Of a DNA stretch of 64,000 nucleotides, positions 42,085-43,090 are shown in pieces. The notes beneath the pieces were generated by a model that was not told the DNA's origin, did no database searches, and was given only the letters and a program-made list of their open reading frames with translations. The stretch spans positions 186,001 to 250,000 of the forward strand of contig NZ_KE387259.1 of the NCBI RefSeq assembly GCF_000430805.1, written 5' to 3'. Positions within the stretch are counted from its first letter, which is position 1. Every line of letters begins with the position of its first letter. Source of the DNA: Chitinilyticum aquatile DSM 21506. Lineage in GTDB: Bacteria > Pseudomonadota > Gammaproteobacteria > Burkholderiales > Chitinibacteraceae. Position numbers and translations under genes: made by a program.

Positions 42085-42124
42085 ACGACAACCCCCTGCC
42101 GGAAACCGGACAGGGGGTTGTCGT
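42085..42124 (-). terminator. Hairpin downstream of the tRNA-Ile gene
   Basis: ACGACAACCCCCTG and CAGGGGGTTGTCGT form a perfect 14-bp stem, 12 bases past the encoded CCA. No clear U-run follows on the minus strand, but its place suits termination or 3'-end processing of the tRNA. Confidence 0.65.
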
Positions 42125-42136
42125 TTGCTGCATGTC

Positions 42137-42471
42137 TGGTGGGCCCCCCGGGAGTCGAACCCGGCACCAACGGATTATGCTTACCAGCTACGGCTTTCGC
42201 CGCCCCTTTCGGGTTTGTGGTCTGGACTGTCTCTTGTCTTTACGACCCGCCCTTACAGTCTCTACACGTTCCCGGCACAACGCCGGGCTTCGCTCGGGAT
42301 TACCACGACCACTTGAAGCGGCCAGAGGCTTCCCCGAATTTGAGCAGTTCTACCATCAGGCAGAGCTAACTTGCCCCATGGCAACCCATATGTCTGCAAG
42401 CCATACCAGTAAAGGCTTAGGCCGGCATACCCTCAAGTCCGCTGCTCTAACCAAGCATGAGCTAGAGGCCC
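42137..42471 (-). tRNA. tRNA-Ile(CAU) interrupted by a group I intron
   Basis: Exon 1 is 42436-42471 (GGGCCTCTAGCTCA... ending GCGGACT). Exon 2 is 42137-42179 (CATAATCCG... ending GGGCCCACCA, CCA encoded). Joined, they give a full cloverleaf. The acceptor GGGCCTC pairs with GGGGCCC using one G-U. The D arm is GCTC/GAGC. The anticodon stem GCGGA/TCCGT holds the loop CTCATAA, and the T arm CCGGG closes TTCGACT. The GACTCATAATC loop is that of the minor tRNA-Ile whose C34 becomes lysidine, rather than tRNA-Met. Confidence 0.88.
42180..42435 (-). ncRNA. Group I intron in the tRNA-Ile anticodon loop
   Basis: 256 nt between U33 and C34 of the tRNA. It ends in the required G (position 42180). On the minus strand, GTGTAGAGACTG and later ACAGTCC supply the two strands of P7 (GACTG with CAGTC). 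TTCGGGGAAGCCT and GGTAATCCCGAGCGAAGCC resemble the core of the Azoarcus tRNA-Ile intron. GAAA-capped hairpins (CCCGAAAGGG, CGGCGAAAGCCG) sit near the 3' end as in P9-type stems. No homing endonuclease is encoded. Open frames across it are chance. Confidence 0.82.
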
Positions 42472-42634
42472 TGTTTTGCAGCTTGGGCGCCTGCGCACCT
42501 GCCTGCAAAGGTGGTCGATTGTAGTGGAAACCCCTGGCATCGCCAAGTACCGCGACTTCCCGGCCTACATGCCGCATAGCCAAGCCGGACAACTTTCCAT
42601 AAAATGCCATTTTGCAGCAAAGCGGCACACGTTC

Positions 42635-43090
42635 ATGGTCATTACCGATAATCGCAAGGCTTTTCACGAGTACTTCATCGAAGAACGCTATGAAGCCGGG
42701 CTTGTTCTGCAGGGGTGGGAGGTCAAGGCCATCCGCGCCGGGCGTATCCAGCTCAAGGAATCCTACGTCATCTACAAGAACGGCGATTTCTGGCTTTTTG
42801 GCGCGCACATCTCGCCACTCCCCACCGCATCCACCCACATCACTCCCGACCCGACCCGCACCCGCAAGCTGCTACTCAAGCAGCGTGAAATCGAGCGACT
42901 GGGTGGCAAGGTTGACCGCTCTGGCTATACGGTAGCCGCGCTGAACATGCACCTGACCCGTGGCTACATCAAGCTTGAAATCGGTCTCGCCAAGGGCAAG
43001 AAACAGCATGACAAGCGGGAAAGCGAGAAAGAGCGGGAATGGCAGCGCGAAAAGGCCCGACTGGTACGCAGCGAATCAAAGCGAGGCTAA
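42635..43090 (+). CDS. smpB: SsrA-binding protein SmpB
   Basis: 151 aa. It binds tmRNA and brings it to stalled ribosomes. Family marks: [34 protein letters not shown], and the basic C-terminal tail [20 protein letters not shown]. The ATG at 42635 gives the usual start ([11 protein letters not shown]); SD is weak. The tmRNA gene itself is not in this window. Confidence 0.97.

Follow-up and report, generated by a model that had tools for sequence, protein, structure and literature searches.

The window analysed here, a 64,000-nucleotide stretch of DNA from Chitinilyticum aquatile DSM 21506, carries on its minus strand an interrupted tRNA gene that lies upstream of yajC and is divergent from smpB (42635-43090, plus strand). 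The gene and its surroundings are arranged as follows:

42518-42546, minus strand: promoter-like site TTGGCG-17-TACAAT upstream of the tRNA, a consensus match only (9/12)
42436-42471, minus strand: exon 1 of tRNA-Ile2(CAU), with the 5′ strand of the acceptor stem, the D arm, the 5′ strand of the anticodon stem, C32 and U33
42180-42435, minus strand: group I intron of 256 nt between U33 and C34, its last base being G (42180)
42137-42179, minus strand: exon 2, with the anticodon CAU, the remainder of the tRNA and an encoded CCA
42085-42124, minus strand: inverted repeat located 12 nt past the CCA, a probable terminator (weak terminator-like match)

Read on the minus strand, the exons measure 36 and 43 nt, and joining them (GGGCCTCTAGCTCATGCTTGGTTAGAGCAGCGGACT|CATAATCCGTTGGTGCCGGGTTCGACTCCCGGGGGGCCCACCA) gives a 79-nt tRNA-Ile2(CAU) with a full cloverleaf and an encoded CCA, the predicted exon junction being GACU|CAUAAUCC. 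This product agrees in every letter with a tRNA that has no interruption, at locus L009 of G037, which belongs to a different family, and when all split points were tried, only the one after 36 nt, that is, between positions 33 and 34, produced it. The initial annotation had proposed that these two segments form a tRNA-Ile(CAU) cut between U33 and C34 by a 256-nt insert ending in G, and this proposal is exact to the base. Other split points fail to give the tRNA, and G is the last intron base both in the window and in all seven homologues detected by DNA similarity (L002-L008), while in the 105 pattern-found introns discussed below the final G is built into the search pattern.

The joined tRNA combines a cloverleaf and a CAU anticodon with a closest resemblance to an annotated Ile2 tRNA, and the genome has separate genes for the initiator and elongator methionine tRNAs. 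Assignment to Ile2 by similarity suggests this identity with a modest margin, as 59 of 79 columns are equal to E. coli ileX, an annotated tRNA-Ile(CAU), versus 54 of 79 for the elongator tRNA-Met of G001 and 45 of 79 for the organism's own tRNA-fMet. Among 58 tRNA matches in the genome, the other tRNAs with a CAU anticodon are two fMet and one elongator Met, and a pattern search agrees. The initial annotation had advised looking for a second tRNA-Ile(CAU) gene; neither another Ile2 tRNA nor a UAU anticodon was seen in the tRNA matches or the pattern search of this draft assembly of 28 contigs. Neither tRNA-Ile(GAU) nor tRNA-Ala(UGC) appears in the outputs and one tRNA runs into masked bases; thus, the assembly has gaps, and a second Ile2 copy is possible. 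The gene for the lysidine-forming enzyme TilS is present in the genome (172 bits against a cut-off of 93.6). As a separate observation, the only elongator tRNA-Met seen in the genome (G000:C10:34638-34763; L073, L201) contains 19 additional nucleotides, TGGGAAGGAACTGGGTCAG, which separate the acceptor strand GGCTATG from TAGCTCAG. The stretch occurs once in the genome and is missing from five compared relatives, and ARAGORN labels the tRNA that contains it tRNA-Thr; it could be an assembly error, a strain-specific insertion or part of an unusual tRNA.

Annotation tools deal poorly with this locus. It had been anticipated that gene callers would miss the tRNA, and this was so for ARAGORN, the finder tried: by default it reported only a tRNA-Arg in the window, and with introns allowed it found the locus, called it tRNA-Ser(UGA) and began the 256-nt insert three bases late. 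Given the identical intact tRNA, ARAGORN finds it with anticodon CAT and labels it tRNA-Met. At the gathering score, Rfam reports no intron at the locus. The suggested scan with Rfam RF00028 (Intron_gpI) was borne out in part, since at a relaxed threshold there is a match at 42347-42247 (E 2.7e-4 in a 601-base search) that covers positions 50-157 of the 253 in the model and scores 25.1 bits, half the gathering cut-off of 50. That cut-off was also missed by all 14 Ile2-type loci tried (of 49, described below) and reached by one of two fMet loci; falling short of it is a matter of detection and not a biological feature. In this genome, the default tools that were tried overlook an essential tRNA gene.

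Working by hand from the intron in the window, we placed the helices P1, P2, P2.1, P3-P9.1, P9.0 and P10, and then counted their pairs across an alignment of 45 Ile2-type rows, 44 of them distinct and the window included. Five of these rows are the window's own, L002, L004, L006 and L007. The other 40 are drawn from the 42 Ile2 rows below 335 nt that the pattern search found, L182 and L190 being left out, as were L003, L005 and L008. The resulting elements of the intron are:

42391-42435, minus strand: variable segment that separates guide and splice site, the P1 loop or an extension
42383-42390, minus strand: internal guide UAUG-GGUU, with GGUU (42386-42383) for P1 and UAUG (42390-42387) for P10
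42349-42382, minus strand: P2 and P2.1, the weakest hairpins (76.7% and 81.7% paired)
42342-42347, minus strand: 5′ strand of P3, partner 42252-42247, with double changes in 6/6 pairs and 99.2% paired
42266-42337, minus strand: P4-P5-P6-P6a domain, from the Rfam alignment and covariation
42255-42260, minus strand: 5′ strand of P7, GACUGU, partner 42230-42225, with covariation
42247-42252, minus strand: 3′ strand of P3, with covariation
42236-42246, minus strand: P8 hairpin, with covariation
42225-42230, minus strand: 3′ strand of P7, ACAGUC, with covariation
42183-42221, minus strand: P9.0 (ACCA/UGGU) around the P9 and P9.1 GAAA hairpins, P9.0 being invariant and largely pattern-fixed

Over 61 pairs in the 44 distinct sequences, 92.1% of 2667 cells are paired, and 29 of the pairs show changes on both sides. 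Double changes occupy 288 cells, compared with a mean of 86.7 after shuffling; none of 500 shuffles was as high, and none matched the real alignment on any of five measures. Sliding the partner strand by one to three columns reduces pairing to 31.6-41.1%, a comparison in which the structure is favoured over its slid versions by having been drawn on a member of the set. In addition, 40 of the 45 aligned rows come from a pattern that fixes GUCCAGACCAC(A/G)AAC and GU(A/G)NGCAUAA. Because this pattern fixes part of the 3′ end, the constancy of P9.0, of exon 2 and of the 3′ letters of the first three pairs of P7 is partly built in; double changes outside the fixed letters are not built in by the search. 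Such changes occur in P3, P4, P6, P7 and P8, which, together with the Rfam alignment of the core and the P3/P7 pseudoknot, identify a group I core, which may be IC3-like. For instance, the third pair of P6 goes from G-C to C-G in 17 rows, and all four pairs of P9.1 have double changes. The P7-like strands GACUG/CAGUC noticed earlier are confirmed with covariation support, and the GAAA hairpins correspond to two GAAA tetraloops. The fold also has weak points, as 22 of the 44 rows do not form the last pair of P7, 27 of 44 do not form the first pair of P5, and just 8 of 43 form the outermost P10 pair. Folding of the single precursor sequence helped little, as it gave a z of only -2.3, by a method that is blind to the P3/P7 pseudoknot. 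In some homologues, open frames are found in the 5′ part of the intron, before P3.

The splice sites fit this architecture. The guide GGUU pairs with GACU of exon 1 (P1), and UAUG pairs with CAUA of exon 2 (P10). P1 is 100% paired in the 44 rows, two of which carry an A-U to G-C double change (A to G in the exon and U to C in the guide). A U.G pair stands at the 5′ splice site in all 44 distinct rows; both of its letters lie outside the search pattern, and the exon letter is required by the script that finds exon 1. P10 has four of four pairs in the window and 69.1% of its cells paired across rows. From these features, we infer that the locus is transcribed and that its transcript self-splices. 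In the folded precursor, GGUU would bind GACU of exon 1, and a guanosine held in P7, the guanosine-binding helix of group I introns, would attack after U33. The freed U33 would then attack after the terminal G, guided by the P10 pairing of UAUG with CAUA, and become joined to C34. After splicing, TilS would convert C34 to lysidine, so that the tRNA could read AUA as isoleucine. It is sound to infer that splicing precedes the action of TilS, because C34 of the precursor directly follows the last G of the intron and can pair in P10.

The insertion between U33 and C34 had been correctly recognised in the initial annotation; it is not new, as it is used by introns in many fMet and Ile2-type tRNAs. 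A pattern scan of named genomes found at least 114 loci with such an intron 3′ end beside CATAA. Exon 1 could be assigned by script score in 105 of them, giving 55 fMet, 49 Ile2-type and 1 unclassed locus (L194), a division that rests on acceptor and stem pairing and not on tRNAscan-SE. Four matches have no T-arm match, five have no exon 1, and the exon 1 is false in L194 and in three fMet rows (L091, L125, L195), while Ile2-type tRNAs with CATAACC (L087, L114, L122) could be elongator Met. Among the matches listed, the Ile2-type hosts comprise 36 Pseudomonadota, 6 Planctomycetota, 3 Acidobacteriota and one each of Chloroflexota, Bacillota, Saccharimonadota and Verrucomicrobiota, and the fMet-type hosts comprise 20 Cyanobacteriota, 8 Chloroflexota, 6 Rhodothermota and 21 others. 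Since U33/C34 introns occur in Ile2-type genes of seven phyla among the matches listed, genomes may be recorded in error as having no tRNA-Ile2. The window intron shares its site and 3′ end with the other fMet and Ile2 introns and belongs to this widespread set, which uses the anticodon loop CU|CAUAA common to Ile2 and fMet tRNAs. One further match (L156) is an fMet-type U33/C34 intron on a contig binned as a nanoarchaeote, where a binning error is possible; in the parts available, one source states that group I introns have not been discovered in archaea (PMC3984707) and another that they have been found there (PMC11835236).

In a quick tree of 115 rows that included long branches, the Ile2 label needed 7 changes. 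A more careful tree had 107 rows and 155 columns after dropping L012, L019, L154, L104, L122, L098, L021 and L022; L194 was never in, and L023 was excluded from the trees by the rule for finding the core. Here, 2 changes suffice for the Ile2 label, compared with 36.0 on average after shuffling, and the window intron lies within a supported set of 26 Ile2 rows (97/93). With 53 of 54 Ile2 rows, it stands apart from the fMet rows, though the deep branches of this tree are weak and its bootstrap is unsettled. A single Ile2 clade has a p-AU of 0.35 and is not rejected; the tree neither demonstrates one common origin nor rules it out.

As for mobility, the window intron lacks an endonuclease gene and is too short to hold one. 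Among the matches listed, ten fMet introns at U33/C34 contain a frame in which the word G(D/N)(I/V)(A/S)EQ(A/S) occurs, nine of these frames being 150-190 codons from stop to stop and that of L084 being cut to 67. The one tested, from a planctomycete fMet intron (L184), matches Pfam PDDEXK_5 at 1.9e-53 and PDB 2OST, which we take to be I-Ssp6803I, at 3.9e-66. I-Ssp6803I is described in the available part of PMC1995217 as located in a tRNA-fMet intron. The U33/C34 set was probably spread by endonuclease homing, with most Ile2 members presumably losing the gene later. Three Ile2-type introns from Saccharibacteria and Acidobacteria (L122, L167, L168) contain, on the antisense strand, an open frame with many Cys and His residues; that of L167 has an HNH match (E 0.0072, below the Pfam cut-off), that of L122 has two other zinc-type families below the cut-off and no HNH, and that of L168 has no Pfam match. 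An HNH identity is, thus, a lead only. Elsewhere, in Undibacterium (L131), Herminiimonas (L163) and Propionivibrio (L177), the intron-bearing gene is preceded by an incomplete copy of the tRNA-Ile2 5′ half that lacks an intron and lies 195, 212 and 220 bp upstream of it, respectively, from start to start. These copies inflated the recorded lengths of introns that really measure 250, 251 and 254 nt, and they may be what is left of an attachment site or of a once intact gene. An integrated element between the two tRNA copies of L131 was considered and set aside, as their starts are 195 bp apart and the next upstream frame is RpoD-like by eye.

Within the family, Chitinibacteraceae of the Neisseriales, 43 genomes were examined, and 34 have an intact anticodon region (the pattern shows this region and not the whole tRNA), 6 have the U33/C34 intron and 3 have an intron after CAU (G002, 245 nt; G012, 246 nt; G014, 202 nt). 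In a DNA search, full-length intron homologues with 76-91% identity were found in G001, G003, G013, G021, G029 and G046, of which G001 is Chitinilyticum piscinae, being identical to L165 over 1800 bases; the U33/C34 introns matched in full, whereas the genomes with introns after CAU gave exon matches only. In about 1.5 kb of flank per locus, smpB and yajC lie beside the tRNA in just 2 of 20 loci, both Chitinilyticum; therefore, the intact tRNAs elsewhere are homologues of the gene and not proven empty sites at the same locus. Two of the relatives, G002 (L021) and G012 (L022), carry two tRNA introns each: in addition to the tRNA-Ile2 intron after CAU, a group I intron interrupts their tRNA-Leu(UAA) at 34/35. 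A single bacterial family with intact, 33/34-split and 36/37-split forms of tRNA-Ile2 offers a natural test of the gain, loss and cost of such introns.

Other explanations of the locus can be weighed against these data. One is that this is a decayed tRNA with a dead intron and that AUA is read by another tRNA; the draft assembly has gaps and could indeed miss another copy. However, the 28 contigs show no other Ile2 or UAU tRNA, tilS is retained, the core helices are intact, as are both exons, homologues vary by compensatory pairs, and all 43 family genomes show one of the three forms of the anticodon region, which makes decay highly improbable. A more serious alternative, still unlikely in our judgement, is that the intron is a ribozyme that needs a protein partner in the cell and is not truly self-splicing. 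The introns of Azoarcus, tRNA-Leu and tRNA-fMet are known to self-splice, and this one is compact, with P9 and P9.1 capped by GAAA, which argues against such dependence; on the other hand, there are group I introns that depend on cofactors, CYT-18 for example, according to the available part of PMC3984707.

It is also conceivable that an intron of the Azoarcus type was shifted by three bases and that this is no member of the U33/C34 set. Words of its core are common, by eye, with the intron after CAU of G014. Nevertheless, the site, guide and exon pairing are all different, the after-CAU introns of G002, G012 and G014 gave no intron match in the DNA search, and the window intron sits within the 26 Ile2 rows of the tree, from which Azoarcus-type rows were left out as long branches. 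We regard such a shift as very improbable. Overall, the sequence evidence leaves us highly confident that this gene is the cell's tRNA-Ile2(CAU), split between U33 and C34 by a group I intron that lacks an endonuclease gene and is very probably self-splicing. Much more speculatively, an ancient intron lineage may have specialised on the CU|CAUAA loop of initiator and Ile2 tRNAs, moving between both tRNAs and across phyla, and in Ile2 its P10 might hide the anticodon before splicing so that ribozyme activity sets the supply of the AUA-reading tRNA.

Introns of this kind are already known, since the available part of the tRNAscan-SE 2.0 paper (PMC8450103) describes Burkholderia and Acidovorax tRNA-Ile2 genes that contain group I introns, with the same tRNA, the same kind of intron and the same failure of tRNA finders as in the window. 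At loci identified here in Burkholderia and Pseudacidovorax, the intron lies at U33/C34, as in the window, and no Acidovorax locus is among the at least 114 pattern matches listed; insertion site, structure and lineage are not given, and Chitinilyticum is not named, in the available part of that paper. In the literature searched, as far as its available parts go, no account of an intron at U33/C34 of tRNA-Ile2 was found, the primary papers on the fMet and Azoarcus introns being outside the search. Most bacterial tRNA group I introns lie directly after the anticodon, according to the available part of PMC4033280, from which the loci described here differ.

The tRNA-Leu(UAA) introns of L021 and L022 (225 and 229 nt) resemble the window intron in their 3′ part, with 73-75% identity over query positions 236-335, exon included, and differ in tRNA and site (34/35). 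The Azoarcus intron shares its host, tRNA-Ile(CAU), with the window intron and is reportedly about 205 nt long, versus 256 nt here. The initial annotation had likened the cores of the two; this likeness holds by eye, but the closest relatives are U33/C34 introns. Its statement that the sites differ stands, as the Azoarcus type sits after CAU: the guide of the Azoarcus intron binds the CAU anticodon triplet (PMC6274277, available part), so the Azoarcus cut falls after position 36, whereas the insertion in the window is at 33/34 only and not at 36/37. The cyanobacterial tRNA-fMet intron (including that of Synechocystis, with I-Ssp6803I) has the initiator as its host tRNA, whereas the window intron resides in Ile2 and is without an endonuclease gene, but both occupy the same site before CAU, next to a 3′ end that is part of the search pattern.
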